42,741 bases of DNA, from positions 1 through 42,741 of IMG/VR virus record IMGVR_UViG_3300042543_000165; one strand, written 5' to 3'. Each line of letters starts with the position of its first letter. Positions within the stretch are counted from its first letter, which is position 1. This document shows, in pieces, positions 1,094 to 41,253 of this stretch. The translations under genes and the position numbers were made by a program. This stretch comes from a virus. The notes beneath the pieces are model-generated. The model was not told the DNA's origin and ran no database searches. It saw only the letters and a program-made list of their open reading frames with translations.

Positions 1094-1870
1094 ATGCCCT
1101 TCTATTCACTGCCAACCGGCGGATCTCCAGTGCTTGCCGGCAACGGTGCGCCAACCGGCGGCGTCGGCAACGTCGGTGACATCTACTTGGACAAAACGAA
1201 CAAAGGGCTTTACGGACCAAAAGACGCCGTTACGGGCTGGGGCGATCCTGTTGATGTGTCGTCGGGTCCGACGGGCAGCACGGGGCCGACGGGTGCGGCG
1301 TCTACGGTTACCGGGCCATCGGGGCCGACAGGCCCAACCGGCAGCACGGGCGCCACAGGCGCAGCTTCGGTTGTGACCGGACCAACTGGAAGCACCGGGC
1401 CGACAGGAGCCGCATCGACGGTGACAGGTCCGCAGGGCAACACCGGGCCGACAGGCAGATCAGTCACTGGCGCGACTGGAAGCGCTGGTGCAACTGGCGC
1501 AACTGGCCCATCGGTCACAGGTCCGACAGGCCCAACGGGCATTGGCGGCACATTCGCTGACGCACAGTCGCTTAACGAGCAGACAGCGGCCTACACGCTG
1601 GTGCTTGGCGATGCGGGAAAACTCGTCACTGTAGATGTGGCGACTGGCACGGTTAACGTCATCGTCCCGCCAGCTGCAGACGTTGCATTTCCGACCGGCA
1701 CGCACGTTGACATTGCCCGGATTGGAGCTGGCATCGTCCAAGTCACTGGCGCCACAGGCGTCGTCGTGAACGGGACGCCAGGCACGAAGCTGCGCGACCA
1801 GTATTCGGCCGGCACTGTGATTCTCTACGCAGCGAACACGTGGCTTCTGGTGGGAGACGTGGACGCATGA
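1094..1870 (+). CDS. Collagen-like fibre protein with GPTG repeats
   Basis: A 258-residue structural protein. Residues about 1-55 form a short N-terminal domain ([18 protein letters not shown]). Residues about 57-150 are a collagen-like block of Gly-X-Y triplets rich in Thr (GPTG, GATG, GSTG), interrupted regularly by cassettes such as [11 protein letters not shown]. The rest is a beta-rich head ([41 protein letters not shown]). Trimeric collagen-type stalks carrying a globular tip are common in phage fibres. The gene is coupled by ATGA to the next fibre gene. The Thr in GPT triplets is relevant to the nearby glycosyltransferases. Confidence 0.85.
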
Positions 1871-3324
1871 GGTGCAAGGCCGGTCTGTTCAGCCGGTTTG
1901 TAGCCCCTGCCGAAATCACGTTTGACGGCAGCAATGGCGCCACGATCAACGTTGGCGGCTCCAGCCGTTCCGGCACAGTGATCTACACCGGCAGCGGGCA
2001 CACCACGTCGCGTCAGTTCAACATGGCGGGCACGACCGGCGGCATGACGCTGGACGCATCTGGGACTGGCGCACTTGTTCTTACAACGGCAATCAGCACC
2101 AGCGTCAGCGGAGCCAAAACGGTCACGCTCACCGGCACCAGCACCTACGGCAACGCGCTCGCCGGGATTAGTCCGACGCACAATCCGGTTGGGCTGACAA
2201 AGTCTGGCACGGGGAAATGGCGCCTTACGGGGGCCAGTAGCCACACTGGCGCGTCCGTTGTTCTCGATGGAACGATAGTCATTGCCACGAATGCGCCGTC
2301 AAGTGGAAACGGTGCTTTTGGCTATTCGCAGACAGGCGGGCTTGGGTCCAACAGTTCGCCGGTTGTCGTCTTGGGAAGTGATGCGGAAAGCTCAAGCGGA
2401 ACGGTGGCGATGCTCTTGGACTCCGGTGCGCTGTTTGGCCGGCTGGTGACGATTCCGGCTCTGGGTACAGGCGGAACGCAGTCTGTTGTTGTTGGCGGCG
2501 AAAACACGACTGGCACGACTACCTTCCAGTCGGGCATGACCTTTTTCGTCAATCGCAACATAACCTTGCAGGCCGCGGCGGGCGGCACGGCAGAGTTCGC
2601 CAACGGCTGGTCATCTGGAGTTCCAGGCGACGGTGGGCCGCTCGCTGCGGCCATAGCTGTCGGTAGTTCCGGCAACACAGGAACGGTGCTTCTGTCGGGC
2701 AACCTTTCCACGTCGGAAACAATTGAAATCAACTACGGACTGTTCAAGGCGACTTCGACCGTTTCCGCGACGAATGGAATCACCGTTGACGGCAGCGGAG
2801 CAGAATTTAATTTCAGCGGTGGCGCAGCCATGGGCTCCGCGCTGACCCTGACGCAAGGAACGCTGTCCGGTTCCGGCGAAATCTCGTCGGCTGTCACGGT
2901 TGGAACAAACGCCACGCTGTCTCCAGGCGATCCTGTTGGGTCGCAAGCGTTTTCTGGCGGGCTGACGCTGGCCAGTGGCGGCACCTACCGCTGGCAAATC
3001 AACAACTGGACTGGGTCTGCAGGAACCGGGTTTGACCAACTGGCGGTTTCTGGCGACGACCTGTCGATTACGGCCACCAGTGGCAGCACGTTCACGCTCA
3101 AAATCGTCGGGCTCACGTCTGGTAATGCTCCCGGCGCGGTTCCCAACTTTGACAACACGACGTCCAAGTCATTCACGATTGCAACGTCAGGTACGTTGAC
3201 AGGATTCGCTGCCAACAAGTTCACAATCAACGACAGCGAATTCACAAACAACAACGATTTGGACGGCGGCACGTGGTCGCTGTCTGATTCGGGCGACGAC
3301 ATCGTTTTGACGTTCACGCCATGA
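1867..3324 (+). CDS. Fibre protein with autotransporter-associated beta-strand repeats
   Basis: 485 residues from the ATG at 1867, which overlaps the upstream stop as ATGA. An upstream in-frame start is possible but lies inside the previous gene. The sequence is Gly, Ser and Thr-rich beta solenoid. It contains units typical of autotransporter-associated strand repeats ([34 protein letters not shown]), then [18 protein letters not shown] and [11 protein letters not shown], a pattern of bacterial surface and PEP-CTERM proteins. No signal peptide or beta-barrel is seen, so it is more likely a virion fibre built from host-type surface repeats. Function is inferred. Confidence 0.75.
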
Positions 3325-4388
3325 TCGATCACCTAGCGGCCTTGAGCGTCCACGCCTTCTACGCAGGCGAACTGGACGCCGGCCGGCGGGCGTGTGAACG
3401 GCTGCTATCACTGCCCGGCATTCCGCAGGCGCTGGACATGCAGACCAGGGTAAACCGCACGTACTACACGCAGCTGCTGGAAGAGCTGGTTGGCTGCCGG
3501 TTTCACCGGCTGGACGTCGAGCCAGCGCAGCCTGGCTGGTCGCTGTTCAATCCGACGATTGCCGACGCTGGCGGGCTTGTCGCAATCGTGCGGTCAAGCA
3601 ACTACCGGATTGTCGATGGCGCCTATGTGATGCCACCGGAAGACGGCGGCCGGATTAGGACGCACAACCTGCTGGTTCGCCTGCGTGATGATCTCACTGT
3701 GGCAGACTGCCGCCCGATCACCGGGCCGGAATACCACCGGACCGAGTATCCGGTTGAAGGGCTAGAGGACTGCCGGCTGCGGATTACCCAAAATGGTATA
3801 GGCGTGTCCGCCACTGTCCGCGATGCGGCACCGCTCAACGGCGATTGCCGGATTGGGATTGCTGATCTGGACGTTGACCGTGCCGAGTTCACCAGCCTGC
3901 GAATGCTGGACTGTCTGTCGCTCCAGCAGCACGAAAAAAATTGGATGCCGCTGCAGGGCTCTGATTGCTGGGTGTATGCCGTCAGCCACTGCGGCCATAC
4001 CGTGACGGTTGACGCCGACAATTCGCTTGCCGGCGCTTATCTGATGCACCGCCGGTCCGCAGCGCCGCAGATCGCCAGCCAGTTCCGTGGCGGTTCGCAG
4101 TTTGTCCCGTTTAACGGCGGATGGCTTGGACTCATCCACGAAGTGGCGCACTGCGGCCACAGAGCCTACGAACATCGTTGGGTTTGGCTGGACAATTCGT
4201 TGACGCTCAAAAGGTGGTCGCTGCCGTTTTTCGTTCGGGAGCGGCAAGCAATCGAATTCGCCGCAGGGCTTGCCTTGGTTGGCGAACGCCTAGTGTGCAG
4301 CTTTGGCGTCAGGGACGCCGAGGCATGGATTGTCGAACTCGCACCTGCCGACATATGGTTGCTCTTGTCACAGGCTACGTCAGGCTGA
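3321..4388 (+). CDS. GH130-like five-bladed propeller protein
   Basis: 355 residues, coupled by ATGA to the fibre gene. Conserved-looking blocks resemble the family 130 glycosidase/phosphorylase-like propeller proteins that accompany glycosyltransferases: NPTIADAGGLVAIVRSSNY, GLEDCRLR, HEKNWMPLQ, FRGGSQFVPF, GLIHEV and YEHRWVWLD, then IEFAAGL. The N-terminal 60 residues look helical. It probably binds or processes a glycan and is the first gene of a three-gene sugar cassette. Whether it is catalytic cannot be told from sequence alone. Confidence 0.65.
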   Translation: MIDHLAALSVHAFYAGELDAGRRACERLLSLPGIPQALDMQTRVNRTYYTQLLEELVGCRFHRLDVEPAQPGWSLFNPTIADAGGLVAIVRSSNYRIVDGAYVMPPEDGGRIRTHNLLVRLRDDLTVADCRPITGPEYHRTEYPVEGLEDCRLRITQNGIGVSATVRDAAPLNGDCRIGIADLDVDRAEFTSLRMLDCLSLQQHEKNWMPLQGSDCWVYAVSHCGHTVTVDADNSLAGAYLMHRRSAAPQIASQFRGGSQFVPFNGGWLGLIHEVAHCGHRAYEHRWVWLDNSLTLKRWSLPFFVRERQAIEFAAGLALVGERLVCSFGVRDAEAWIVELAPADIWLLLSQATSG

Positions 4389-5050
4389 ACCAGCCGCGCA
4401 GCCATTCGCTCTATCTGGAACTGGGCCGGCGTCTGCTTGGGCTCGGCCTTCCTGCAGTCTGCTTCTATGACGGCCCCGCAAGCGATCTAGGCGCCCCATC
4501 TGGCGTGACCGTGCTGCCAGCCAGCCTGGACCGCTGTTGGCTTTACAGCGCCACTAGAGGCGCGCAGTCGCCATTGCCGGAAAGCCCCAAGGATGGCGTC
4601 GATTACATGGTCGTCCAGCACCAGAAGACAGCATGGTTGAAAGCCGCCGCAGAACTGACCGGCGCAGCGTTTGTGGTCTGGGTCGATTTCGGAATCATGC
4701 ACCTGCCGGGTTTTGTAGATCACGACATCGTGCCGTTCTTTGAGCGGGTGCCGAAGGCAGCGACTGACCGGGTGACCATGCCGGGCATCTGGCCGATATC
4801 GCCGCAGACGGCGATTGATAACAGCCGCGTGGCGTGGCACGTGGCCGGCAGCGTGGCGATCTGCCCAGGCGACCTGGCGGGCTGGTTCCATGCCGCCTCA
4901 GACCGCGAGGCTAGGCGGCACATCGAGCAGACCAACCAGACCACGTGGGAGGTCAACACGTGGGCGGCCGTCGCCAGAGACTTTCCAGAGCGGTTCCGCC
5001 TCTACGCGGCGGACCACGATTCCCGGCTTTTCACAGGGTTTCAGCCATGA
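4355..5050 (+). CDS. HtrL/YibB-like glycosyltransferase-type protein
   Basis: 231 residues from ATG 4355, overlapping the previous gene by 34 bases. A longer frame extends upstream, but that part is a shadow of the GH130-like gene. The N-terminus VALVTGYVRL, then SLYLELGRRLLGLGLPAVCF, and centrally KTAWLKAAAEL and VVWVDFGIMHLPG, match the layout of the HtrL/YibB family, which has a GT-A-like fold. WVDFGI would supply the acidic metal-binding position. It is flanked by a GH130-like gene and a GT2 gene, so it probably acts in the same glycan pathway. Substrate is unknown. Confidence 0.55.
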   Translation: MVALVTGYVRLNQPRSHSLYLELGRRLLGLGLPAVCFYDGPASDLGAPSGVTVLPASLDRCWLYSATRGAQSPLPESPKDGVDYMVVQHQKTAWLKAAAELTGAAFVVWVDFGIMHLPGFVDHDIVPFFERVPKAATDRVTMPGIWPISPQTAIDNSRVAWHVAGSVAICPGDLAGWFHAASDREARRHIEQTNQTTWEVNTWAAVARDFPERFRLYAADHDSRLFTGFQP

Positions 5051-6096
5051 AAATCGGCGTCTATGCCTTGGCCAAAAACGAAGAGAAACACGCCGCTGAT
5101 TGGGCGCAGTCGTGTGCTGACGCTGACGTGCGAGTGGTCACGGACACAGGGTCAACCGATGCGACCGTTGAGCGACTGCGAGCAGCTGGCGTCACTGTAG
5201 CCACTGGGAACGTCGTGCCGTGGCGCTGGGACGACGCACACAACCTGTCGCTCTACCACCTGCCGTCCGACGTTGACGTGTGTATCCGCCTTGACCTGGA
5301 CGAGCGATTGTCACCCGGCTGGCGGGAAGTGGTTGAACGTGATTGGACGGACGGCGTCAACCAGTTTTTCTACAAATACGTCTGGTCGTGGCACAAAGAC
5401 GGCACGGAGGATCTGGTATTCCTCTGCGACCGCATCCATGCCCGGCACGGATTCCGCTGGTCTGCGCCGACACATGAAGGGCTGATCTGTTGGCACGGCG
5501 AGAAACGCAGCCGGCTGGTTCACGGGCTGCAGATTTTCCATCACCGGGACGCAGGGAAGAAGCACAAGACTGACCTGGAACTGCTACGCATCGCCGTGCG
5601 TGAGGCACCGCACGACGCTCGGGCGCAGTGGTATCTGGCCCGCGAAATGGATTACGCCGGATTGCCAGAGGCACGGGAAGCGTTTGAACGCTACCTAAAA
5701 ATGGAAGGCGGGACGGCTACGGAACGCGCCTTTGCCTGCCGGATTCTCTGGAAGCTGGCCGGAGACCCGGCGTGGCTGGTGCAGGCGACCGGCGAAGCGC
5801 CAGACGAGCCGGAAGCGTGGGAACGGCTAGCGTTTCTGGCCTACCGCCAGCGTGACTGGAGCAAGGTCGTTGCGCTGGCCCGCAATGCCGTCGAGCGGCA
5901 GAACATCGGCACGCACTGCAGCGATCCAATGGCACGCACTAAGGCGATGGATTTGCTAGCTGTTGCGCTTTGGGAACTTGGCCAGCGACCAGAGGCACTG
6001 ACGTTTGCCCGGCAGGCTCTGGCACGATGGCCGGAAGATCCACGCCTGCGACAAAACGTGGCAAACATGGAAAACGTGCTTGGAGGCGCGGCGTGA
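5047..6096 (+). CDS. Glycosyltransferase family 2 with C-terminal helical repeats
   Basis: 349 residues from the ATG at 5047, overlapping the previous stop as ATGA. It begins like a GT2 enzyme: IGVYALAKNEEKHAADW, then DTGSTDATVERLRAAGV (nucleotide-sugar site), then RLDLDERL, which supplies the acidic metal-binding motif. After about residue 190 come helical TPR-like repeats (EAREAFERYLKM, RPEALTFARQALARWPEDP). TPR-bearing GT2 enzymes often modify protein or surface glycans. The product is unknown. Its location directly after Thr-rich fibres and before tail genes makes virion glycosylation attractive. Confidence 0.8.
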   Translation: MKIGVYALAKNEEKHAADWAQSCADADVRVVTDTGSTDATVERLRAAGVTVATGNVVPWRWDDAHNLSLYHLPSDVDVCIRLDLDERLSPGWREVVERDWTDGVNQFFYKYVWSWHKDGTEDLVFLCDRIHARHGFRWSAPTHEGLICWHGEKRSRLVHGLQIFHHRDAGKKHKTDLELLRIAVREAPHDARAQWYLAREMDYAGLPEAREAFERYLKMEGGTATERAFACRILWKLAGDPAWLVQATGEAPDEPEAWERLAFLAYRQRDWSKVVALARNAVERQNIGTHCSDPMARTKAMDLLAVALWELGQRPEALTFARQALARWPEDPRLRQNVANMENVLGGAA

Positions 6097-6554
6097 GTAG
6101 TTATCTGCGGCAGATTGCCGACGCTCTTGCCGATAGCCTTGGGGCTGTTACGTGGGAAATCAACACCACGACCGTTGAGCGAAAAAACTGGGTCAACATC
6201 GACGTTGAGTCAATGTCCAACCCGGTTGTCTACGTCACGCCTGGGTCAGCAGACGTGACCCGCATTGGTCGCCGGCAAACCCAAGTGGACTATGACGTCC
6301 AAGTGTTTGTCGGTCGGCACGTCAACACCGACCAAGAAGTTGACGACATGCTAGACCTGGCCAACGACATCTTCCGCCAGATTAAGGCGCACGAGTTTGA
6401 CGACCTAGAAAACTGGCCGGAAGGCGTGACGAGCCCGCAGACGGTGGCGATCGAGCTAAATCCTGACGATGCGTTGAGCGAGCGGAACGTATGGCGGGCG
6501 GCCATTGTCGCCACCTACCGCGTGCTTGAACTGGACGACCTGCCGCAGGAGTGA
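6093..6554 (+). CDS. Putative tail completion / terminator protein
   Basis: 153 residues from GTG 6093, overlapping the glycosyltransferase stop as GTGA. It starts SSYLRQIADALADSL and continues with a mixed alpha/beta region (QVDYDVQVFVGRHV, EVDDMLDLANDIFRQIKAH, VWRAAIVATYRVLEL). That is the size and layout expected of small neck or tail-terminator proteins. It is followed by a gp10/gpZ-like gene and the tail-tube genes, the usual order for siphoviruses. No specific family was recognised with certainty. Confidence 0.5.
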   Translation: MSSYLRQIADALADSLGAVTWEINTTTVERKNWVNIDVESMSNPVVYVTPGSADVTRIGRRQTQVDYDVQVFVGRHVNTDQEVDDMLDLANDIFRQIKAHEFDDLENWPEGVTSPQTVAIELNPDDALSERNVWRAAIVATYRVLELDDLPQE

Positions 6555-6560
6555 GCCGCT

Positions 6561-7355
6561 ATGCGAGCCAGCCGCGCATGGATTCGGCCAGGCCAGATTG
6601 GTGGCAATCGTCGGTCGCGGTCTGCTGAAACCGATCTGCGATTATCGCTGAACTTCAGAATCAAAAGCAGTTTTTTTGACCGTGCTAGTGTCGGCCGGAT
6701 GCTGGACGCCACCAATCAGCGATGCCTTATCAAGGCTGGGCTGGACATCAAGGAAGCGTCCAAGAAGGGCATTGGGCAAAAGCCGCCTGCAAAAACAAAG
6801 TCTGGACGACGTGCAGTCAGGGCCGGCGCCGTCGTTGAGTTCGCTGGCGGGTTGTATGAAGACCTGACCATGGTGAACAGCGGCAAGCCACGGTCTGCAG
6901 GCAACCCAATCAAGTCATGGGGGCCGAAGCGGTTTACCTATCAAGACATCAAAGACTATTTTGACACCAGCCGAAAGACAGCAGTTATTGGCGCCGCCAA
7001 GGCTACTTGGCTGAATCAACTGCATGAGTTTGGCGGGACGCTTCGGCTGCGAGCATGGCGCACTGGCGTTCGGGCAGCGCGGAATGCCTACCTGCGCCGC
7101 AGGGGCAATGGTCGCCAAGGAAGAGATGAGCGCGGCCGGTACACCACGGCACTGCCGCAAGCGAACCAGTTTCGCTATGGGCTGCTCGTCTGGACAAACA
7201 AAAAGCCAAGGCATTCCCGCAATTGGGAAGCCACCACGATCGTGAAGACCGCCCGCTATCCGGCTCGCCCCTTCATGCAGGGCGCAAGGCTGGTGCAAAA
7301 GGCAGTCGCCAAGGCCAACGAAAAGTGGCGGAACGCGCTGCGGAAAACAGGCTAG
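6561..7355 (+). CDS. Minor tail / tail completion protein (gpZ or HK97 gp10-like)
   Basis: 264 residues, ATG 6561 with AGGAG 9 bases upstream. It is very basic. The section LNFRIKSSFFDRASVGRMLD followed by AGLDIKEASKKGI resembles the start of phage minor tail protein Z/gp10-type proteins. The C-terminus YPARPFMQGARLVQKAVAKA resembles the conserved end of that group (aromatic-PARPFM). The position between the terminator-like gene and the tail-tube genes fits. It would act at the tail-to-head connection. Confidence 0.6.
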   Translation: MRASRAWIRPGQIGGNRRSRSAETDLRLSLNFRIKSSFFDRASVGRMLDATNQRCLIKAGLDIKEASKKGIGQKPPAKTKSGRRAVRAGAVVEFAGGLYEDLTMVNSGKPRSAGNPIKSWGPKRFTYQDIKDYFDTSRKTAVIGAAKATWLNQLHEFGGTLRLRAWRTGVRAARNAYLRRRGNGRQGRDERGRYTTALPQANQFRYGLLVWTNKKPRHSRNWEATTIVKTARYPARPFMQGARLVQKAVAKANEKWRNALRKTG

Positions 7356-7424
7356 CCACACCCCCTACGCCGCTCCTGTGTGCTGCCCCTAATCTGCAAG
7401 CACACCCCAGTTCAAGGAGCCCGC
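7353..7424 (+). promoter_or_regulatory. Spacer before tail-tube genes with TAGCCACACCCCCT motif
   Basis: The stop codon and the bases after it read TAGCCACACCCCCT, identical to 36480-36493 before the head module. Related TAGCC-type spacers are at 19861 and 24187. An AAGGAG ribosome site at 7414-7419 serves the next gene. The shared spacer could hold a late promoter or processing signal; this is inference. Confidence 0.35.
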
Positions 7425-7742
7425 ATGGCCATTACTCTCGGCAAGGACGTGACGATTACCGGCGTTTCCAACGCCCGGTCCTGCACCGTCACTTCAAGCG
7501 CTTCCGAAGTGGACGTCACCAAGTTTGGCGATTCGTCCCGCAAGTTCCGCAAAGCGCTGATTGAGCAAACGATCGAGGTCGAGTGCGTTGACGATCCCGG
7601 CGTTGAGGCTGGAGATGCGTTCACGATCACTGGCACCGAGACGGGCAACGCGGACTACATCTGCACCAGCGTAGCGCAGTCGGAGCCTCTGGACGGAATC
7701 GTGACGTTCACAGTGTCAGGCACTCGCACGGTCGCCTCGTAA
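7425..7742 (+). CDS. Tail-tube-like protein, paralogue 1
   Basis: 105 residues from ATG 7425, preceded by AAGGAG. It begins MAITLGKDVTITG and ends with DGIVTFTVSG. The same N-terminus (MAITLGKD) and C-terminal motif (DG, hydrophobic, TF) recur in the next two genes, so the three are tandem paralogues. Beta-rich proteins of about 105-120 residues just before the assembly chaperone and tape measure are expected to be tail-tube proteins. Which copy dominates the tube is unknown. Confidence 0.65.
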   Translation: MAITLGKDVTITGVSNARSCTVTSSASEVDVTKFGDSSRKFRKALIEQTIEVECVDDPGVEAGDAFTITGTETGNADYICTSVAQSEPLDGIVTFTVSGTRTVAS

Positions 7743-7767
7743 CACACCACACACTAAGGAACAACGT

Positions 7768-8085
7768 ATGGCCATTACTCTCGGCAAGGACCAGACGGCG
7801 CCTCCGAAGGGCACCAACATTATTTCGGCCACGTACACGGAGGAGTGCGAGGCAATCGACATCTCCAATCGTGACAACATCAGCGGCACGTCAGGAAATC
7901 CTGGCTACAAGATGTCCACGGCCGGATTCACCACAAAGACGTGGGAGATTGAGTGCCACGACGCCAGCGGCCTGGTGGCTGACCTTGAGGCTAACGCCAG
8001 CAGCGGCTGGAAAGTCATGTCCGTCACGGAGAACATCGGCATTGACGGCGCCGTGACGTTTTCGGTGACTGCCAAGGAGTTCTGA
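7768..8085 (+). CDS. Tail-tube-like protein, paralogue 2
   Basis: 105 residues, ATG 7768 with AAGGA upstream. It shares MAITLGKD and the closing DGAVTFSVTAKE with its neighbours, but the middle (NRDNISGTSGNPGYKMSTAG) differs strongly. It is separated from the third copy by only three bases. Together with copies 1 and 3 it may build a mixed tube, or it may be a specialised initiator or terminator subunit. Confidence 0.65.
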   Translation: MAITLGKDQTAPPKGTNIISATYTEECEAIDISNRDNISGTSGNPGYKMSTAGFTTKTWEIECHDASGLVADLEANASSGWKVMSVTENIGIDGAVTFSVTAKEF

Positions 8086-8088: not shown

Positions 8089-8448
8089 TTGGCCATCACG
8101 CTTGGGAAGGACTGCACCGTATCGTTTGGCACAACCATTGCCAGCGCTCGGAACGTCACGTTTTCCGAAACGGCGCGCACCATCGACATCAACGAATTCG
8201 GCGTGCGTTACTCGTCTGTCTACTCGACTGGGTATGACGCAACCGTGTCTGTTGAGTTGAACGATTCGGCTGACGCGGATGGGCTGTTCACAACGCTTCA
8301 GAACGGCGACGAAGTCGCAATCAGCGGCGGCGCTGGTAGCTGGTCTTTTACCGCTGTAGTGACTGGCATTTCGGAGTCGTGTCCGATTGATGGCGTGGCA
8401 ACGTTCACGATTGAAGCAAAGATGACGAAGGACGGATTGCGGCAATAA
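8089..8448 (+). CDS. Tail-tube-like protein, paralogue 3 (TTG start)
   Basis: 119 residues. The start is TTG at 8089, supported by AAGGAG at 8074-8079 and by the N-terminus MAITLGKD shared with the two genes upstream. The body has TIDINEFGVRYSSVYSTGYDATVSVEL and ends DGVATFTIEAKMTKDG, matching the tail-tube pattern of the other copies. The rare start codon may lower its expression relative to copies 1 and 2. Confidence 0.65.
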   Translation: MAITLGKDCTVSFGTTIASARNVTFSETARTIDINEFGVRYSSVYSTGYDATVSVELNDSADADGLFTTLQNGDEVAISGGAGSWSFTAVVTGISESCPIDGVATFTIEAKMTKDGLRQ

Positions 8449-9022: not shown

Positions 9023-9204
9023 AGAACGATTGGTGGCATACCGCCAACCTGTTGGCCCAGCAAGTCAACCTGCATAAGGAACGACACGCCCCAAAAGCGG
9101 ACCCACGCAAATTCAACCCGTTTGCACGGAAGCCTAAGCCGCGCGAGGCATCACCAGAAGAACTAAAGCGGCTATTCGGCCCTGACTGGCACAAATACGC
9201 ATGA
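8926..9204 (+). CDS. Tail assembly chaperone frameshift extension (-1 frame)
   Basis: The -1 frame relative to the upstream gene reads VWDAVWEAAGILGVHPGKW, then TLRQLLAARNGRLENDWWHT and ANLLAQQVN. This resembles the pattern of short C-terminal domains of phage tail assembly proteins (tryptophan-rich, AGI, hydrophobic helix, FNPFARKPKP tail). The segment before the only plausible start, TTG 8995, has no start codon but is the best-preserved part. Translation by -1 frameshifting from the 8462 gene is therefore more likely than independent initiation. The exact slip site is unresolved; T-GGG-AAG at 8941-8947 is one non-canonical candidate. The start given here is approximate. Confidence 0.55.
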   Translation, partial: VWDAVWEAAGILGVHPGKWTLRQLLAARNGRLENDWWHTANLLAQQVNLHKERHAPKADPRKFNPFARKPKPREASPEELKRLFGPDWHKYA

Positions 9205-12200
9205 GCGCCTCAAAAGTACGTGCCGGTCAGGTTTATGTAGAAATCGGGGCAGACCCGAAAAAGTTCTTTGCCGCACTCGGCAGGGTCAATAAAGCCGTCG
9301 GTGCGATGGGCCGCAGCCTGTCGATGTCGGGCGCAGCGCTCACTGGCATCGGCGCAGGGATGGCGGCGCCGATCGTTGCGGCAGTTGCCGCAGGGGCGAG
9401 GTTTGAAGATCGCCTGCTGGCGATTAGGGCATCGACAGGCGCCACGCAGGGTGAGCTTGACCGCGTCAAAGCTGCCGCCATGGGCATGTCGGAGGCGCTA
9501 GGCGTCGGGCCGACTGAAGCCGCGGCCGGGATGCTGGAACTGCTCAAGGCTGGCATGAGCCTTGACGCTGTGCTGGGTGGTGCCGGAAGGGCCGCACTAG
9601 AGTTCGCCAAGGTCGGCCAGATGGACGTCGGCCAGGCGGCCGTCGTGATGTCGGACGCCATGAACGTCTTTGGCGTCAGCGGTGAGAAGGCCGCCAACAC
9701 GCTGTCAGCAGCTGCGGACGCATCGAGTACGTCGATTTCGCAGATGTCTGAAGCGTTCTCGATGTCTTCTGCAGTTGCGGCATTGGCGAACCAGTCGATT
9801 GACGATCTTTCGGCGGCGCTTGCCATCCTCGCCAACAACGGCGTTAAGGGAAGCGATGCCGGCACTAGCGTCAAGACCATGCTGATGAGGCTAATGGCGC
9901 CAGCCGATGACGCTGTAGGCGCGCTTGCTGAAATAGGACTCTCCGTTGATGCCTTCCGCGGCGCTGACGGCAAGATGAAACCTATGGTCGAGATTATCCG
10001 CACGCTCAACAATGCGCTTGCGGGCATGGATCAGGCGGCAAAGGATGACATTTTCCGCCGCATCTTCGGGCAAGACGCGATCCGTGCGGCTTCGATCTTG
10101 ACGAGCGCCGGCGTGGATGGCTTCGCCAACATGCAGGCAAGCATGGCGTCGGCGCTGCCGGTTGGCGAAAAATACAAGGTGATGATGTCCGGCCTATCTG
10201 GCACCATGGGCAACATCATGGCTTCACTTGAGCGGATGTCGATTGCCATATCCGACGCCGTCGCGCCGGCATTGGCTTCAGTCATTCCGTTTGCTGAAGG
10301 ATTGGCCAGAAGCCTTGTGGACTTGGTCACCAACAACAAGGACGCGGTGGCGCAGTTTGCAAAGCTGGCTGTGGCAACAATTGCCGCTGGCAGCGTGCTG
10401 ACAGGTTTGGGGCTGTCGCTTCAAGTGGCATCGTTCGCCATGGGCGGTCTCGGCAAAGCCGCCAGCGTGCTGCTGTCTCCGATGACTCTGCTGATTCGCG
10501 GTGCGCTGATCGCCAGCGGAACATTTTCGGCAGTGGGCACAAGCCTTGCTGGGTTTGGTTCCGCCGCCAAGGTTGCGTTGTCCGTAGCGGGATCTTCAGC
10601 GCTGTCGTTTGCGACATTGGCAACAAATGCAATCGGCGGCTTTGCCGTTGCTGGCACGGCGTCCGTCGCGCAATTCGTTGCCGCTGGGGTTGCTGGATTC
10701 TCCCGAATGACGGGTGCCGCAGTAATTGCAGCACAGGCGATGTTTCCCGTGTTTTTCACAGGATTCAGCAGAGGGATTGCTGCTGGTGCAGGGTTCTTTT
10801 CTGCCACCGTGCGTGGGCTCAATGGTGTCGTCATGGCGTCCAGCGTCCTGCGTGGCGCCCTATTCGCCGTGTCTGGCTCTGGCATGGCCCGGTTTGTTAC
10901 GGACATTGTCAGCGGGCTTACTCTCACATACAAGTCGTTTGTCTGGTGGGCTTCTGGCGCATCTGCCAGACTGGCGCAGTATGCTGTTGCACTTACTGGC
11001 GCCGTCGGGAAAACAATTGCATCGACGGCCGCCATGGCTGCTGCTTGGGCCGGGTCTGCGGCGAAAAGCGTCATGGCGTTTGCCGGATCTGCGGTCACTG
11101 CCATTGGCAGTTATCTGGCGGCAACTGCAATGGCAGTTGCTGGATCGGTTGCGTCTGCGGCCGCTGTTGCCGCGGCGTGGCTGGCTCCGCTTGCACCGTT
11201 CCTATTGCTAGGTGCTGCAATCGCCGGAGTTGCGGCTGTAGCCTATTCGTTCCGCAACACAATCGCAGGCGCCTTTTCTGGCCTTGGCGACTTGATCGGG
11301 CAGGCATCGTCGGCAATCGAGAGCACTTTTTCTAAGGTTGTTTCCGATGCGTCCGTTGTGTTCTCTGACTTGGCTACAACCGCCACCACGACATTCAGCG
11401 GCATCTACGAGGCGATTGCGGATGGCGACCTTGCCGGTGCTATGGACATCCTCTGGGCGGGGCTTGTTGCTGGCTGGCTACGTGGTTCTGAAGCGTTGAT
11501 GTCGTATGTGGACCCGTGGATTGGACTATTTCAAAACACGTTCACGGCACTTGGCGCCGGTATCTACAAAACGTGGGACACGATTTGGCTGAATCTGTCC
11601 AACGCTTTCAACACATTTAGCGCCGTGCTTTTGGGTGCGCTCGACAATCTATTCAACGGAATTGCTGCAACCTTTGATGGCATAGAGTCAACGGCCAGAA
11701 AGGCAATGAACTTGGCGAGCAAGGCGGCAAATCCGTTCATGGATCTTGCTGCGGCCAACGCCGAGGTTGATGCGGAAATGCAGCAGCGCGCGGACGCTCG
11801 GGCGGGCGCGCGCCCGGGCGTTGACGCCAGAGCCCGGCAGGCAGCGGATGACAATGCGCGGGCGACTGCGCAGCGTGATGAGCGCGCGGCTGCGATTGAT
11901 GCAAACACACAAGCGGCGGCAGATGCACGCGAAGCAGCAGACCGCCAGCGTGCCGACGAGCGACGTGCCGCAACGCAGGAAGCTGAATCCACGGTGGCCG
12001 GCAAGGGCAAGGGAAAGCGAGAGGCGCGCGCAAGGAACGATCAATTTACCAGATTGTTGTCGGACATTGAGAATGCTACATCAATCGACCAACTGCGAGA
12101 CCTCTACGGCGAGTTTGACGCGCTCAACGCAAACGGCAGACTGTCGGCCGTTCAAGCCAGCACTATTGAAGCTGCGCTGGAAGATGCACAGGAGCGGGTG

Positions 12201-12455
12201 ACCAGAAATTTGGTCAACGCACAGTCCGCGGCAGCGCAGGGCGCGGCACAGCGAGCGGCCCGTGCTGGGGCAATGGCCGCCGGCCAAGACGCTGCGCAGA
12301 GCAAGGCCGAGGTGGCTGGCACGTTCTCTGCTATGGCCGCCGAAGGCATGGGCTTCGGATCTAATTTGGCCGAGCGGGCATTGAAGGCCGCAGAGCGCAC
12401 GGCAAACGCTACTGAGCAAATGGCAGCGGAGGGCGGGCCACGGGCCGCTGAGTAA
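9201..12455 (+). CDS. Tail tape measure protein (TP901 core domain)
   Basis: 1084 residues, ATGA-coupled to the gene before. The N-terminal third has the TP901-type core: VNKAVGAMGRSLSMSGAALT, ARFEDRLLAIRASTGATQGE, a run of small residues around MSDAMNVFGVSG, and DAGTSVKTMLMRLMAP. Residues about 370-700 contain long Ala, Val, Ser and Gly-rich hydrophobic stretches, likely membrane-inserting. The C-terminal quarter is helical, charged and Ala/Arg-rich (DARAGARPGVDARARQAADD). Length should set the tail at roughly 150-170 nm by the usual scaling of about 1.5 angstrom per residue. Its size indicates a siphovirus-type tail. Confidence 0.93.
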   Translation: MSASKVRAGQVYVEIGADPKKFFAALGRVNKAVGAMGRSLSMSGAALTGIGAGMAAPIVAAVAAGARFEDRLLAIRASTGATQGELDRVKAAAMGMSEALGVGPTEAAAGMLELLKAGMSLDAVLGGAGRAALEFAKVGQMDVGQAAVVMSDAMNVFGVSGEKAANTLSAAADASSTSISQMSEAFSMSSAVAALANQSIDDLSAALAILANNGVKGSDAGTSVKTMLMRLMAPADDAVGALAEIGLSVDAFRGADGKMKPMVEIIRTLNNALAGMDQAAKDDIFRRIFGQDAIRAASILTSAGVDGFANMQASMASALPVGEKYKVMMSGLSGTMGNIMASLERMSIAISDAVAPALASVIPFAEGLARSLVDLVTNNKDAVAQFAKLAVATIAAGSVLTGLGLSLQVASFAMGGLGKAASVLLSPMTLLIRGALIASGTFSAVGTSLAGFGSAAKVALSVAGSSALSFATLATNAIGGFAVAGTASVAQFVAAGVAGFSRMTGAAVIAAQAMFPVFFTGFSRGIAAGAGFFSATVRGLNGVVMASSVLRGALFAVSGSGMARFVTDIVSGLTLTYKSFVWWASGASARLAQYAVALTGAVGKTIASTAAMAAAWAGSAAKSVMAFAGSAVTAIGSYLAATAMAVAGSVASAAAVAAAWLAPLAPFLLLGAAIAGVAAVAYSFRNTIAGAFSGLGDLIGQASSAIESTFSKVVSDASVVFSDLATTATTTFSGIYEAIADGDLAGAMDILWAGLVAGWLRGSEALMSYVDPWIGLFQNTFTALGAGIYKTWDTIWLNLSNAFNTFSAVLLGALDNLFNGIAATFDGIESTARKAMNLASKAANPFMDLAAANAEVDAEMQQRADARAGARPGVDARARQAADDNARATAQRDERAAAIDANTQAAADAREAADRQRADERRAATQEAESTVAGKGKGKREARARNDQFTRLLSDIENATSIDQLRDLYGEFDALNANGRLSAVQASTIEAALEDAQERVTRNLVNAQSAAAQGAAQRAARAGAMAAGQDAAQSKAEVAGTFSAMAAEGMGFGSNLAERALKAAERTANATEQMAAEGGPRAAE

Positions 12456-13357: not shown

Positions 13358-13887
13358 TGGCAGGGAACAACTACCGAATTGAAAAGGGCCAAAGGCTTTC
13401 GTCGGCAGTGTCTGCGCGTGCATGGAACCGCGCACAGGATGCGGCTGACGTTGTTCTCGGCTCTGTGCTAGGCAACAAAGCGGGCGAAAACGCTCCTGGC
13501 GCAAGAGCGTCAAACATCATCCTGCTTCGGAACACTACTGCACTTACGGTCCCGCAATTCGGCGTCCTGCGGATAGGTGTGCCGATCGTGTTGAATACTG
13601 AGAACCCTGCGCAGTTTTCCGAGCAAATGGTGCTGACAGGCTTGATGCCAGACGGGCTGTCTCCGTTTGCCGTTGCGCTTGAGCCTATTAGCGCTGGAAA
13701 GATCGGTCGATGCGCTATATCTGGCCGTTTTGCGTGCAAGGTCAAAGTCATTGACGCTGCGCACAAATATGCGCGATCAAGGAATAACGACGTAACACAA
13801 CTGATTAGCACGGCCTGCGGTGCCGTGCGGCTTGCTTGGAAAGAGTCAGGCACTGGTGAAAACAAATTTGCCGCTGGTGTGATGTGA
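13357..13887 (+). CDS. Tail-tip-region structural protein
   Basis: 176 residues, coupled to the gene before by TAATG. The middle (NTTALTVPQFGVLRIGVPIV), then DGLSPFAVALEPISAGKIGR and CAISGRFACKVKVID suggest a small beta-barrel particle protein. The C-terminus (VRLAWKESGTGENKFAAGVM) is like short structural proteins of other phages. It is probably a tail-tip component; no enzyme signature is visible. Confidence 0.45.
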   Translation: MAGNNYRIEKGQRLSSAVSARAWNRAQDAADVVLGSVLGNKAGENAPGARASNIILLRNTTALTVPQFGVLRIGVPIVLNTENPAQFSEQMVLTGLMPDGLSPFAVALEPISAGKIGRCAISGRFACKVKVIDAAHKYARSRNNDVTQLISTACGAVRLAWKESGTGENKFAAGVM

Positions 13888-16800
13888 CTTGCACTTGCTG
13901 CGTCTGCGCTGGCCTGCCGCTTACCCGTGGGCTTGGCGGCCCTTCTTGGTTGCCTTCAGACCGAAGCGACCAAAGCCTTGATTTTGCCAACACAAGGTTG
14001 GTGACGTGGGCCGACGCAGGAGGGTCAAACTACAACGTAGTTGACGGCCATGGCCCAGTTGAAATGCAAGGCCAAGCAGGGTGGTCGTCCTTTCTGGAAG
14101 GCCGCTGGCTAACAGGATCTTCCGTCACGTTCACGCAAATTGACGGCCCTGGCGCGTCGCTTGGAACGTACTTGTTTCCAAGCCTGTGGACAGTTGCCTA
14201 TCCGTTCAATGCGATTGAGTATCCAGACGACTTGGCGGCACTTCCCAAGTCTGGCGCCGTAACGCTGTCGCTTTGCGGTCAATCAGTGACGATGGCATAT
14301 GACCTGACTGTTCATGCACTTGACGGCTCAGTGAGCAACGCCGTCTACGTTAACAAAGGCGATGGTGAGCCACCCCCGTTCACGTCGTCCGCTGTTGTCC
14401 ACCAGCAGCTGCAGTCTGTCACCTTTACGCCAAACGGCAATCTGCCGTCTGTTTCAGATGCTTCGCAAACGATGGCGTCTAGTGGCGGAACGGCGATTAG
14501 TGAATTTACGGAACGGCCGTTAAGTGGGCTGAAGGATTTACTGTGCTGGCGTGAAGTGTTCAACGGCACCAGTGCAGACAAATGGAATGTCCAAGAACAG
14601 CAACTAGGCGGCGCAAACCAAACTCCCGCGCTGGCATCTGGTTACACACTTTCGCACAGGCTTGAATTTAACTCCGAAAATCGACTTCTATTGCCAGAAG
14701 GTAGCCAGAGACGGCCAACGTGGCCTTATCCGGTTTCGCTGTCTTTTGTTTGCAGCGGACAGCCGATTGACGAAGCATTGCCATCAGCAGGCTTCTGGAC
14801 TGCTGCTGCATTTCGGCCGACATATCTCGATTCTGCGCGGCAGACGCACATCGAATACGAAGTCACTGGCCCAACCGGAACGTCCGCACCGCACATCAAG
14901 GGAAATTTGGTTGGCATCGACCGCGGTAATACCGCCAACCAAGACGCCGGGTCGGGAATGCTTTATTCGCTTTCGTGCAATGGCGTTGAGACGCTACCGC
15001 CAACCCAAGCACCGACCAGGCAGCAACTGTTTGACGCGACCAGCGGCGAGGGATCGTACTTGGTAACAGTCACGCCGACTGGTTCTTACGGTTATCCAAG
15101 CACTGCAATTCCGACAAACAAGGATTTTTTTAGCTTCGTCATTGACAGGAAAAAGCCTGTCGTCGGATTTGCTCCCTTGGATGACATCTTTGCTCTCGGC
15201 GTCGTTCCTAATAGCGTCCTTACGTCCACAAAACCGCTGGCGGCTCCAAGCTGCCCAGACGAAGAATCAGCCGACGGCTTTTTGCCTAGGCCATTGTTTT
15301 TTGACGGCGTCAATAACTTCTTGAAGCAGGATGGCGTCAACGCCACTACTCTTGGCGCAACGCCCGGCACTTACACGCTCCAAGCGTTTTCTGTTTCCCA
15401 GTGCCATGATTTTTCCGGCAACAATCCAGACCAATCGTTTTCGCAGTCGTGGACTGTCCATGCCAAGCACGCCAACCACCGGCCAGAAAGTCAGGCTGGC
15501 GGGCATTCGTACTACGGCGCCATCCCAACAATTGAGCAGCCGGGCCTGCTGACGCGCGAGTATTACCGAGCACGGCTGCAGTCAGAGCAAGTCACGTCGT
15601 TACGGCTGACGTTCGATCGCCCGATTGACCCTGCCACTGTAGATGATTCGCAGGTGACGCTGTGGGCCAACGGTACGCAAGTTGGCGGTTGCACTCTAGA
15701 GCAAGTTGACACAACTACGCTCAACTGGAGGATCAACATTCCCGCAGGCGTGCAATCCTCTGCGACTTTTCTATTGCTGGAATATGACCCGGCCGGAGAT
15801 GTGATGACGGCCGAGACTTTTCCAGAGGTTCACTATCCGACAAAAGATGACTTTCCGACGGACCCGCTTCGGCAGGCAGAACTGTTTCGCCTTGTCTTCA
15901 TTTCCGATGATGACGGAAAACGCTATTCGGTCTCCGTGAATCCGGCCACGTTTGCAATTTCATATGTGGAGATAGTTGGGAATCCGCTGGACTGGAACGG
16001 AAACCCGTATGACCCAGAGCCGTCTGCGATTGCGGCCAGGGTTAGCTGGCTTATGGCGGACACTGGCGGCTGGCCCCGCATGATTGACACCAGTTCCGTG
16101 CTGCGCGGATTCGTTGTTGGGCGTGCCGCAAGCATCGGCGCAAGTTCGTCAATCAATATGCAGCAGAACGACTTGGCAATTTCGTCAAGCGGTGATATTG
16201 GGATTGCGGCAGAGTCTTCGCCTGGGCCGTTCAATTTTTTAGGGGCAACCGCTTTGCCTCCTGTGCAGCCGCAGCAGGATTTCACGGACTTTGGGCTAGT
16301 GTCGACGGCCGTGAACTACGAAGGATTTATTCCGCGCGTTCCCGTCACCGGCGCAACAGGACCGTTTTCCTACTGGGGCCTCGGCACGACGATTGATCCC
16401 AGCCCGCCAGCGCTGGTGTCGCAGTGCGCCGGGCCAAGCGAAGCGCAGTGGCACAGTTCAGCGATTGTGTGCGATACAGAAATCACGTCTTTCACTGCGC
16501 GCATTGTGATTCTGGATGGTGACGGGAATGAGATCGCTCCAACTGAGACTAGCGGCGGGTACATAGACAACAAGTTGGTATTCAACGGCGCCGCGCTAGG
16601 CGACTTCAACCACGTTGCGACTGACATTTTCCCACGCATCATGTGCCTAGATGGCCCGCCCGCGATAACGCTTGGCACAACATTCCAGGGCACCACGCTT
16701 TCACAGAACGTGTGGGCCTGTGTAAACGATGGTGGCGGCACGGAAATCACTGCCCAACCACAGGCGACTACCAGTGCTTATTTCTTGGACGGTGAATCTT

Positions 16801-17516
16801 TCACGGAGTCAAACCATTGGCTGGACGACACGCCGCATTTCTTGAGGCACTTCAACAGCGAGGAACAAACGTATGGCGATTCCGAAACAACTGAGGAAGA
16901 CGCAAAAGAAGGGCTGCGATTTACGGAAGACGATTTGCTGACAGACGGCCCGTTCCCATTTAGCGAGACAGAACTACAGCGAAAGGTTCGCTGCGTAAAG
17001 TCTGCGACCTATTCGTTGGAAGGCGTCCAAGGGATGCTGTCAGCCTCTAGGCAGGCAAAGACATTCCCGGCGCTCAAAACAACCACGCTTGGCCCGCTGG
17101 TGCTGACGCTGTCGCTGCGAGCGTGCATCAAGGCCGAGACGGAATACGAAGATTTCAGCGTCAAGCCAACGGAGTACGTGCGGCTCGTCGGAGAACCAAG
17201 CATCTGGGGCGGTCCCGGCTACATCTACCAAGAAAATATGACGTTTTCTGAAGCCATGGACTGGCTGCTAGACAATCTAATCGGCCTAGATGTCGAAGAA
17301 GACACATGGAAACTGCGTGCATTGATTTGGCTAATGTACTGCGAGAAAGACCAATCCCTTGCCACTCGCACGCTAACGGAACGAATTCTTAACGATTACG
17401 TCTACACCCACACGCTGACGCCTGACCAAGAGGTGGCGCTAGCCAATGGAGATGAAATTACGATGCCGCTTGGTGGCGTGGATGGCGGGTACAGCGTGAA
17501 GCTAAAGCGGAGCTAG
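13884..17516 (+). CDS. Very large tail-tip / receptor-binding candidate (1210 aa)
   Basis: 1210 residues from GTG 13884, overlapping the upstream stop. It starts with a cysteine cluster (MTCTCCVCAG). A long region is rich in beta strands and aromatic residues. Around residues 590-670 is an Ig-like stretch (LRLTFDRPIDPATVDDSQVT, ATFLLLEYDPAGD). The C-terminus becomes acidic and helical (MDWLLDNLIGLDVEEDTWKL). It is the largest gene after the tape measure and ends the tail operon. Tail tip, central fibre or receptor-binding protein is the natural assignment, but no known family was recognised. Confidence 0.45.
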   Translation: MTCTCCVCAGLPLTRGLGGPSWLPSDRSDQSLDFANTRLVTWADAGGSNYNVVDGHGPVEMQGQAGWSSFLEGRWLTGSSVTFTQIDGPGASLGTYLFPSLWTVAYPFNAIEYPDDLAALPKSGAVTLSLCGQSVTMAYDLTVHALDGSVSNAVYVNKGDGEPPPFTSSAVVHQQLQSVTFTPNGNLPSVSDASQTMASSGGTAISEFTERPLSGLKDLLCWREVFNGTSADKWNVQEQQLGGANQTPALASGYTLSHRLEFNSENRLLLPEGSQRRPTWPYPVSLSFVCSGQPIDEALPSAGFWTAAAFRPTYLDSARQTHIEYEVTGPTGTSAPHIKGNLVGIDRGNTANQDAGSGMLYSLSCNGVETLPPTQAPTRQQLFDATSGEGSYLVTVTPTGSYGYPSTAIPTNKDFFSFVIDRKKPVVGFAPLDDIFALGVVPNSVLTSTKPLAAPSCPDEESADGFLPRPLFFDGVNNFLKQDGVNATTLGATPGTYTLQAFSVSQCHDFSGNNPDQSFSQSWTVHAKHANHRPESQAGGHSYYGAIPTIEQPGLLTREYYRARLQSEQVTSLRLTFDRPIDPATVDDSQVTLWANGTQVGGCTLEQVDTTTLNWRINIPAGVQSSATFLLLEYDPAGDVMTAETFPEVHYPTKDDFPTDPLRQAELFRLVFISDDDGKRYSVSVNPATFAISYVEIVGNPLDWNGNPYDPEPSAIAARVSWLMADTGGWPRMIDTSSVLRGFVVGRAASIGASSSINMQQNDLAISSSGDIGIAAESSPGPFNFLGATALPPVQPQQDFTDFGLVSTAVNYEGFIPRVPVTGATGPFSYWGLGTTIDPSPPALVSQCAGPSEAQWHSSAIVCDTEITSFTARIVILDGDGNEIAPTETSGGYIDNKLVFNGAALGDFNHVATDIFPRIMCLDGPPAITLGTTFQGTTLSQNVWACVNDGGGTEITAQPQATTSAYFLDGESFTESNHWLDDTPHFLRHFNSEEQTYGDSETTEEDAKEGLRFTEDDLLTDGPFPFSETELQRKVRCVKSATYSLEGVQGMLSASRQAKTFPALKTTTLGPLVLTLSLRACIKAETEYEDFSVKPTEYVRLVGEPSIWGGPGYIYQENMTFSEAMDWLLDNLIGLDVEEDTWKLRALIWLMYCEKDQSLATRTLTERILNDYVYTHTLTPDQEVALANGDEITMPLGGVDGGYSVKLKRS

Positions 17517-25231: not shown

Positions 25232-26185
25232 TCAAGCCGCCGGTCTATCCCCGTCCTTTTGCCCTTGACCAGAATTGTCAACCGGCGGCGGTTCCGCGAA
25301 GTTCAGCGGCGGCAGGCAGTCCACGCTGCTCTGCTCCGTTGGGCAAATCGTCGGATCAACATAGACCTCTTGCAGATTCGGGTCCGAGTGGTCAAGCACC
25401 TGAGTAGCCGCAGCCTTTCCGCCGGCTAGGGCTGCATAGGAAGCCCGTGTCCTGCGAAGCCCGTGGAAGCCTCGGTATTTCACGCCTGCGTTTTTGCAGA
25501 GCAATTTGAGGCTTGTCCACAGCGAACCGCGGCAACGGTCCCAAACCCAGATCCGTTCCTCTGGCCCGCCTTTGTGCTTCGCCAGCATGGCTGCGAGATC
25601 GGCCGTAAAGTCCCGGTCGAGGTCTCGGGTCTGCCCTTTGCGGGTTTCTCCCCGGAACAGCACTCGACGCCGCTCTAGGTCAACGTCAGACCAGCGGAGC
25701 GACATCAGCGCTTCGGCCCGTTCACCTGTGCAATAGCCCATGTAGAGCAACGTAGCCCACCACCAGCGGCTCGGCTTTCCGCCGGTGCTGCCGTTCCTCC
25801 GTAGGGCGGTACGGATCAGTGCCGCCACGTCTGCGGATTGGTAGGCCCGCCCAACCGGGATGGATTTCGGCACCTTGATGCGGGGCAGTTCTGGGAAGTC
25901 TTTGCACCACCGTTTTCGCGCTGCGTAGTTCCAGACCGCCTGGATCATCACCTTGTCTTTCTGCACAGAAGCCGACCGGATCGGCTTGCCAGCCCAGGAC
26001 TGCGTAGCTCGCTCTCTGAGGTAGCGACTGATGACAAGGTCATCTAGGTCGTCCACGGTTGGAGCGTGTCCTAGAAACGCTTCTAGACGTTCCAGAAGCA
26101 TCCAGTACAGCGCGGCCGTCTTGCTGCTCAAGTTCCGCAGATCGCAATACCGCTCAACCAGTTCTTTCAGCGTCATCGGTTCCAT
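25232..26185 (-). CDS. int: Tyrosine recombinase (phage integrase)
   Basis: 317 residues on the minus strand; GGGAGG on that strand precedes the ATG. The N-terminal half is the SAM-like core-binding domain. The catalytic set is complete: Arg156 (TGER), Lys183 (TRKGQ), His241-x-x-Arg244 (HGLRRTRAS), His266 (LDHSD) and Tyr275 (EVYVD). It should integrate and excise the phage, showing a temperate lifestyle. It is the only gene of the window on this strand, and its upstream region has several palindromes. A Pro- and acid-rich tail of about 40 residues follows the catalytic domain. Confidence 0.95.
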   Translation of the reverse strand: MEPMTLKELVERYCDLRNLSSKTAALYWMLLERLEAFLGHAPTVDDLDDLVISRYLRERATQSWAGKPIRSASVQKDKVMIQAVWNYAARKRWCKDFPELPRIKVPKSIPVGRAYQSADVAALIRTALRRNGSTGGKPSRWWWATLLYMGYCTGERAEALMSLRWSDVDLERRRVLFRGETRKGQTRDLDRDFTADLAAMLAKHKGGPEERIWVWDRCRGSLWTSLKLLCKNAGVKYRGFHGLRRTRASYAALAGGKAAATQVLDHSDPNLQEVYVDPTICPTEQSSVDCLPPLNFAEPPPVDNSGQGQKDGDRPAA

Positions 26186-31262: not shown

Positions 31263-31459
31263 CCGTTTCGCAACTCACATTGATCTGTGCCGGGTTTTCG
31301 CTCAATGCCCTGACTTTCGGTTTGGGCATCGTGGTTGGTGTGGCTCTCTCTAATCGAAAGGATTCGACAAATGGCAACTGCAACGAAGGAACGAAGGGGA
31401 AAGAATACTGGCACGGCGTTGAACGCCGCGGAACTCAAGGCAGCACTGGCGACCGTTAG
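31259..31459 (+). CDS. Small single-pass membrane protein overlapping dnaN
   Basis: 66 residues from ATG 31259. The N-terminal SQLTLICAGFSLNALTFG followed by LGIVVGVALS is a transmembrane segment; the rest is polar. The last 89 bases overlap the dnaN start in another frame. The overlapping part of the protein is low-complexity, so a shorter functional product is conceivable. Confidence 0.45.
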   Translation: MTVSQLTLICAGFSLNALTFGLGIVVGVALSNRKDSTNGNCNEGTKGKEYWHGVERRGTQGSTGDR

Positions 31460-38188: not shown

Positions 38189-38244
38189 ACTGGCTCGGCA
38201 TCTACGAAACCGACGACATCGACACCGTCTGGGAGTTTGATTGA
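38185..38244 (+). CDS. Translationally coupled micro-ORF between portal and capsid genes
   Basis: 19 residues (MNWLGIYETDDIDTVWEFD). ATG overlaps the portal stop (ATGA) and the stop shares a base with the capsid ATG (TGATG). It may simply couple translation of the capsid gene, or be a small capsid accessory. Confidence 0.4.
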   Translation: MNWLGIYETDDIDTVWEFD

Positions 38245-40563: not shown

Positions 40564-41253
40564 GTGTCCGACCTTCTCCAGACCGGCGCGGCGTGGCTGG
40601 CCAATCGGTTGGCGGACTCTGCGGCCAGTCTCTGCACCTATCACCGGGGCAACAGCTACGCCCAGGTCCGTGCCACGGTCGGCAGTTCGACGTTTGAGGC
40701 CCAGTCACAGTCAGGCGTCATCGAGACGTGGCAATCACGCGATTTCATCATCAAGACTTCCAGCCTACCGTTTGGTGAGCCTGCCAGGCACGACACAGTC
40801 GTTGAGACAATTGACGGCGTGGATCTGACGTATGAGGTGACGAGCCCGTCGGGCATGCCTGTTTTTCGTTACGCCGATCCGTACCGCAACTGCGTGCGCG
40901 TCCACACGATTGCCACCGACAAGAGTTCCGCCGTTCTGCCGACGCTCAAGCAACGCTATTGGGGCGTGTCGGCGCTGACGTCCGTGACTAACCAGCAGAT
41001 CGTTGACCTGTTCTCAAGCGACCTTGCCGGGAACAACGGGCAGTCGCGGACGCTGTCGCCTTCCGGCCAGCACCTGTATTTCGTGCTGCCCGCATCCTTT
41101 GGCGCAGCGTCGTTCACTGTGAACGGTCTGTTCACGTCTGCTTGGGAAACGACCACTAGGTCAATCACGTTCCCGTCACAGTCTGCGGCAAGCTACACGA
41201 TTTACCGTTCCACATACGCCATCACCGGAAACGCAAAGGTGGTTGTGTCGTGA
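40564..41253 (+). CDS. Head-tail joining protein fused to fibre-type C-terminal domain
   Basis: 229 residues from GTG 40564. Residues about 1-118 ([55 protein letters not shown]) have the form of small head-tail joining proteins found after DUF2190. Residues about 120-229 ([39 protein letters not shown]) match a domain usually seen at the C-termini of phage fibres and other surface proteins. The combination would place a binding domain at the neck. Coupled by GTGA to the collagen-like fibre. Confidence 0.6.

Follow-up and report, generated by a model that had tools for sequence, protein, structure and literature searches.

The window analysed here, the 42,741-nt stretch of the IMG/VR viral record IMGVR_UViG_3300042543_000165, contains at positions 3321–6096 three consecutive genes (cassette genes 1–3) that probably serve for virion glycosylation, being expressed together with the late structural genes and acting on the phage's own fibres. 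Cassette gene 3 encodes a predicted glycosyltransferase (GT) of family 2 with tetratricopeptide repeats (GT2-TPR), and two fibres of the phage contain collagen-like regions rich in GPT triplets. Since sugar-transfer genes of this type are located beside threonine-rich (Thr-rich) collagen genes in bacteria and in unrelated phages, it is likely that the virus decorates its own fibres. An earlier note on this DNA had proposed such self-glycosylation, which at the sequence level is supported by the collagen association and by the polypeptide-modifying relatives of the GT2-TPR enzyme.

Association of GT2-TPR genes with Thr-rich collagens

Both in bacteria and in phages, GT2-TPR genes are associated with genes for Thr-rich collagens. 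In viral contigs drawn by DNA motif alone (GPTGPTG, GPAGPAG, GPQGPQG), members of the family, accepted at E<1e-20, were found at 13 of 141 Thr-rich collagen loci and at none of 80 Thr-poor loci (Fisher p=0.0024), the lengths of the loci being similar, and the median Thr fraction in this test was 0.66 versus 0.35 (p=0.0002). The members fall into 7 clusters at 60% identity and are typically 0–4 genes away from the collagen. At two loci (L283, 2681–4789 and L206, 12338–13630) a single open reading frame (ORF) fuses a GT2-TPR-like part to a GH130-like domain and immediately follows three GPT collagens in the first and two in the second, and Actinomycetia phage DSL-LC01 (L486) has two GPT collagens, a gene annotated as tryptophan halogenase (6433–8004) and the GT in a row.

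Among the best 80 bacterial homologues, one genome per species, a collagen is present within 10 kb in 37, and 35 of these collagens are Thr-rich, mostly 57–216 bp away; the pairs are found in Clostridia, Actinomycetota, Planctomycetota and Sphingomonadales. When only loci with full flanks are counted, the collagen is within 10 kb in 15/40 and within 1 kb in 12/40. In 148 Clostridia genomes GPTGPTG is present in 7 of the 8 with the GT versus 14 of the 140 without it, and with the chosen centre genome left out in 6 of 7 versus 14 of 140 (p=2e-5).

Some variants of these loci can be added. The halogenase-annotated gene of DSL-LC01 overlaps the GT. At L220 (8286–9875), L229 (4234–5862) and L255 (3–1517), adjoining GPT collagens, the GT2-TPR part is fused to an N-terminal half that is putatively methyltransferase-like. 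In Clostridia, GT2-TPR genes also occur as tandem pairs with no adjoining collagen (L502, L506, L507 and L536, around 9989–12210), the same genomes having many GPTGPTG sites elsewhere.

The GT2-TPR enzyme and its candidate acceptors

The product of cassette gene 3 (349 aa) belongs to the phrog_13126 'beta-1,4-glycosyltransferase' family (E 5.8e-78) and shows C-terminal TPR repeats by Pfam. Its DTGSTD and DLDE (D83-x-D85) motifs are invariant in a 20-member alignment reaching down to 33% identity, and the predicted nucleotide-sugar site is intact with the DxD kept. In a Foldseek search against the PDB, the AlphaFold2 (AF2) model (mean predicted local distance difference test score, pLDDT, 92.8) has the S-glycosyltransferases SunS and ThuS on top (E 2.8e-14 to 1e-13), and a profile search of PDB sequences gave, TPR proteins aside, GmaR (E 3e-9), ThuS (5e-6) and SunS (7e-4) over the catalytic half. 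The nearest solved relatives are polypeptide glycosyltransferases. The GT2 with TPR-like tail described in the earlier note is thus confirmed.

The GPTG motifs on which that note had remarked are far above expectation, with 9 in fibre 1 and 10 in fibre 2 where shuffling (5000 times per protein) gave means of 0.15 and 0.12 and maxima of 3 and 2; every other ORF of the window has fewer than two. Threonine occupies the Y position of 15/23 triplets in fibre 1 and 16/34 in fibre 2; in both fibres it is confined to this position, never X, and AASTVT-like breaks divide the collagen regions. The two fibres are therefore predicted as the probable glycan acceptors.

Coupling of the cassette and its other two genes

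ATGA junctions are present at 1867/1870, 3321/3324 and 5047/5050, and the GT2 stop codon (6094–6096) overlaps the GTG start (6093) of the next tail gene. With overlaps at both ends the cassette shows translational coupling to both of its neighbours and is locked into the structural operon, inside which the earlier note had placed it; the coupled operon that yields the fibres also yields the three cytosolic-type enzymes. The proposed ATGA coupling to the fibre genes holds at 3321/3324, but the gene directly upstream encodes a fibre with autotransporter-type repeats (PATR) and not a collagen. An ATGA junction between genes 1 and 2 does not exist, since gene 2 starts at ATG 4355 and overlaps gene 1 by 34 nt (4355–4388). 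All three proteins lack transmembrane segments, the highest Kyte-Doolittle mean over 19 residues being 1.5.

The AF2 model of gene 1 (355 aa, pLDDT 88.5) retrieves with Foldseek GH130 mannoside phosphorylases (E 5e-11), followed by the Leishmania GDP-Man-dependent mannosyltransferase MPT-2 (E 1e-5), and matches the five-bladed beta-propeller fold of GH130 with a TM score of 0.5–0.57. Residues E149-D150, E205-K206-N207, R256, H273 and Y283 are invariant and R152 nearly so (GLEDCR); E149-D150 is a candidate equivalent of the GH130 catalytic acid. Gene 1 could be placed in no sequence family; no Pfam match was found at E up to 1, and 5b0p appeared in the sequence search only at E 0.99, so a sequence-level assignment to GH130, with no profile match, was rejected and the propeller call stands as a GH130-like fold only. 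By tblastn, distant relatives are found in two Synechococcus phages, annotated as 'beta-mannosyltransferase' and 'MGP protein'. The enzyme probably acts in the synthetic direction, and its proposed role is glycan extension.

The HtrL/YibB-like identity suggested for gene 2 (231 aa) was rejected, PF09612 having a best E of 0.13 in 2 of 8 family members and no match to the window protein, and the protein could be assigned to no other family. Of the fold predictions that had been suggested for all three enzymes, those obtained are the GH130-like fold of gene 1 and the SunS/ThuS fold of gene 3.

The cassette in related phages

Viral scans with genes 3, 1 and 2 gave 33, 15 and 2 loci, respectively, and the three-gene synteny with a fibre upstream is found in about 30 related contigs. 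Gene 1 is constantly first and gene 3 last, while the middle position is variable, being occupied by a gene-2 homologue, a Methyltransf_24 gene, an extra GT2 or FkbM-type and other methyltransferases, singly or combined. All 22 related records with both the cassette and the fibre region have a GPT-rich fibre 1 and/or fibre 2, so that the same cassette does occur beside GPTG fibres in relatives, for which the earlier note had suggested a search. The PATR fibre is present in the closest relatives only.

Relatives lacking the cassette were obtained by a scan with the capsid gene and retrieval of whole records. Their fibre-2 orthologue has the same N-terminal anchor; it either consists of the anchor alone and lacks collagen, or belongs to the GPQ/GPA/KGD type and contains 0–1 GPT; threonine is at Y in 4/59 (G027) and 13/55 (G028) triplets. 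Fibre 1 was found in the GPT form only, and is absent throughout this clade; in G027 the orthologue of the 6093 gene (11961–12419) is located directly after the fibre region. Three members (G029, G035, G036) have long fibres with tandem WTQRTLPANA-type repeats in place of GPT fibres.

Several observations weigh against glycosylation of the GPT fibres. The capsid tree unites the cassette-less phages in one clade (27 rows, support 100/100) that branches from among cassette-positive phages, indicating that the cassette, fibre 1 and the GPT content were lost together in a single event; covariation within the capsid lineage is therefore not taken as strong evidence, and more weight is given to the viral and bacterial samples, which are independent of it. 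One phage in this clade (L093) still has Thr at Y in 17/36 triplets, and five phages of the lineage (G013, G014, L457, L461, L468) have retained the cassette, its adjoining fibres being free of collagen. In several large phages GT2-TPR genes belong to glycan clusters and no collagen is present within 10 kb, such genes are away from collagens in L471, L472, L476, L477, L478, L481, L484 and the jumbo phage PaBG, and 128 of the 141 Thr-rich phage collagens have no GT2-TPR gene in the stretch examined. Furthermore, the likeness of gene 3 to the Clostridioides difficile enzyme SgtA (same size, GT and TPR architecture, collagen neighbourhood) is one of description. The loci without a nearby collagen indicate that GPT collagen is not the sole acceptor of the enzyme family. 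The converse possibility, named in the earlier note, that homologues occur only in phages without Thr-rich fibres is false for most of them, a minority lacking collagen.

Alternative explanations

The five relatives with collagen-free fibres suggest that the cassette might glycosylate a virion protein elsewhere than on GPT threonines, for example the upstream PATR beta-helix fibre or a LamG-type fibre, the GPT collagens being one of several acceptors. The PATR fibre is the gene directly coupled to the cassette, and SgtA accepts Ser too (PMC7157674). This would be the most serious competitor, but we consider it unlikely, since throughout the family, in bacteria as in unrelated phages, the link to Thr-rich collagens requires neither a PATR nor a LamG fibre, and PATR is restricted to the closest relatives.

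That the enzymes modify a surface glycan of the host (receptor masking, superinfection exclusion or lysogenic conversion) and are located beside the fibres only as part of a host-adaptation region is a reading often given to phage GTs, and the encoded integrase and the glycan clusters of large phages containing related genes would fit it. It seems rather improbable with three proteins lacking transmembrane segments, a two-sided translational coupling inside the late structural operon and a GT2 whose nearest solved relatives act on polypeptides; moreover, the GT adjoins collagen genes in bacteria too, which have no host whose surface could be converted. Modification of host lipopolysaccharide was rejected, the cassette containing no membrane proteins.

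GPTGPTG is common in viral contigs, co-loss is explained by one phylogenetic event and several loci have the GT or cassette without collagen, all of which could mean that the cassette hitch-hikes in a fibre hotspot with no functional link to its neighbours. The significant association in three independent samples (viral, bacterial and Clostridia), together with the gene fusions, makes such a coincidence quite improbable.

Hypermodified bases are known substrates of phage GTs (cited in PMC12619734), but glycosylation of the phage DNA has hardly any probability and was rejected, since the early genes scanned (RecT, exonuclease, sliding clamp and RusA) include no base-hypermodification gene and the late-operon position and polypeptide-GT architecture argue against it.

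Proposed mechanism

If the cassette glycosylates the phage's own fibres, the TPR arm would hold the collagen strand late in infection, and the GT2 domain would place the first sugar on the Y-position Thr of GPT/GAT triplets, before or during trimerisation; by analogy with SgtA the donor should be of the GlcNAc type. Extension of this sugar might then be the work of the GH130-like enzyme, which perhaps adds a mannoside and draws it from a nucleotide sugar or sugar-1-phosphate, and the exchangeable middle enzyme, elsewhere an O-methyltransferase or extra GT, would finish the glycan. In such a pathway the GT2-TPR enzyme initiates, the GH130-like enzyme extends and the variable enzyme caps. The collagen stalk would thus be coated with sugar, and its outer glycan would differ from one closely related phage to the next, which may affect stability, receptor contact or recognition.

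More tentatively, tailed phages may run a modular, serotype-like virion glycosylation, in which exchangeable methyltransferases or GTs are placed between two constant enzymes, a GH130-like one, which would work as a glycosyltransferase extending the O-glycan, and a polypeptide GT. With constant enzymes flanking exchangeable ones, closely related phages could coat the same collagen fibre with different glycans. A variable, coupled cassette for fibre glycosylation looks new.

Genome organization and host

An exact 127-bp repeat at both ends of the record indicates a complete genome, circularly permuted or terminally redundant, and therefore fibre 2, at the far end of the window, really belongs to the same late operon as fibre 1 and is located some 1.6 kb upstream of it. 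Across the junction this operon reads terminase, portal, capsid/protease, head-tail joining protein and fibre 2, followed by a small gene, a glycine-rich protein spanning the junction and another small gene, and continues with fibre 1, the PATR fibre, the cassette, tail genes and the tape measure (Table 1). Three tandem paralogous genes in the tail region before the tape measure all have the motif MAITLGKD, and possibly encode several tail-tube or tail-completion proteins.

Full-length homologues of the capsid protein, with up to 48% identity and E to 3e-139, were found in Planctomycetota genomes, 29 of 199 having matches, and the matches in genomes on the Betaproteobacteria side (5 of 143) are partial and weak, for which reason the host is likely to belong to Planctomycetota. 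Integrase and capsid homologues suggest a temperate phage of this phylum. The related prophages in Planctomycetota genomes have neither collagen nor cassette, and are thus of no use as a covariation test. Relatives of P0003 were found in 0 of the 199 Planctomycetota genomes.

Table 1. Positions of the cassette, the fibres and other features in the window.
Feature	Position	Strand	Properties
Glycine-rich protein	ends 796		spans the junction
Small gene	800–1084
Fibre 1	1094–1870	+	258 aa; anchor, GPT-rich collagen-like region, C-terminal head; PHROG minor tail/tail fibre
PATR, autotransporter-type beta-strand-repeat fibre	1867–3324	+	PF12951 E 2.8e-7; TIGR02601 E 3.8e-8; ATGA-coupled to fibre 1 and cassette
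Cassette gene 1, GH130-like beta-propeller enzyme	3321–4388	+	conserved first gene; fold (AF2, Foldseek)
Cassette gene 2, variable middle gene	4355–5050	+	family alignment; replaced by methyltransferases/other GTs in relatives
Cassette gene 3, GT2 + C-terminal TPR	5047–6096	+	predicted polypeptide O-glycosyltransferase, SgtA/GmaR-like architecture; PHROG, Pfam, fold
Next structural gene, tail region	6093–6554	+	start overlaps GT2 stop
MAITLGKD paralogues	7380–7742, 7768–8085, 8089–8448
Tape measure	9201–12455
Late protein	13884–17516		1210 aa; no PHROG or significant Pfam match; conserved in closest relatives
Integrase	25232–26185	-	phrog_1 E 1.7e-30
DNA polymerase III beta clamp	31335–32486		Pfam E 1.2e-19
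Capsid	38241–40079		homologues in Planctomycetota genomes
Fibre 2	41250–42245	+	331 aa; N-terminal virion anchor (22 letters, not shown), interrupted GPT-rich collagen-like region; PHROG tail fibre matches

Implications and comparison with known systems

Phages commonly encode collagen-like fibres and also orphan glycosyltransferases, for which DNA protection or modification of the host surface is the usual explanation. The link between GT2-TPR and Thr-rich collagens at the family level gives them a testable general function and identifies many candidate glycosylated phages. Fibre sugars could alter how a phage binds or is recognised. The link further suggests that a phage can shift fibre recognition through exchange of a sugar-modifying gene while keeping the fibre.

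Among the open-licence papers searched, none connects phage collagen fibres with glycosylation. GH130 mannoside phosphorylases and the GT108-type Leishmania MPTs have the fold of gene 1, but with 12–15% identity and no Pfam match for gene 1. GmaR, the Listeria flagellin glycosyltransferase, and SunS and ThuS share the GT2 domain with gene 3 and have polypeptide acceptors, but these are flagellin and bacteriocin peptides, SunS and ThuS form S-links, and SunS is derived from the SPbeta prophage. The mimivirus enzyme L230 also represents a virus glycosylating its own collagen-like protein, by glucosylation of hydroxylysine (PMC9614988), but it is unrelated and belongs to a giant virus of amoebae. 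Mycobacteriophage GTs (Che8 gp110, Corndog gp38) are reported to modify the phages' own structural proteins, as is proposed here, the targets being capsid and tail tube proteins and not collagen fibres (Freeman et al. 2023, PMC10527164).

The closest parallel in description is SgtA, a 358-aa protein with a GT-A domain and four TPR whose gene adjoins bclA3, and which in vitro adds beta-O-GlcNAc to Thr of GPT peptides from the collagen BclA3 with UDP-GlcNAc and Mn2+ (PMC7157674). It belongs to a bacterial spore-protein system and is a lone GT with no GH130-like partner described there. In the window the GT2 gene is separated from fibre 1 by the PATR gene and two cassette genes. Bacterial homologues of gene 3 that adjoin GPT collagens, as SgtA does, were found.

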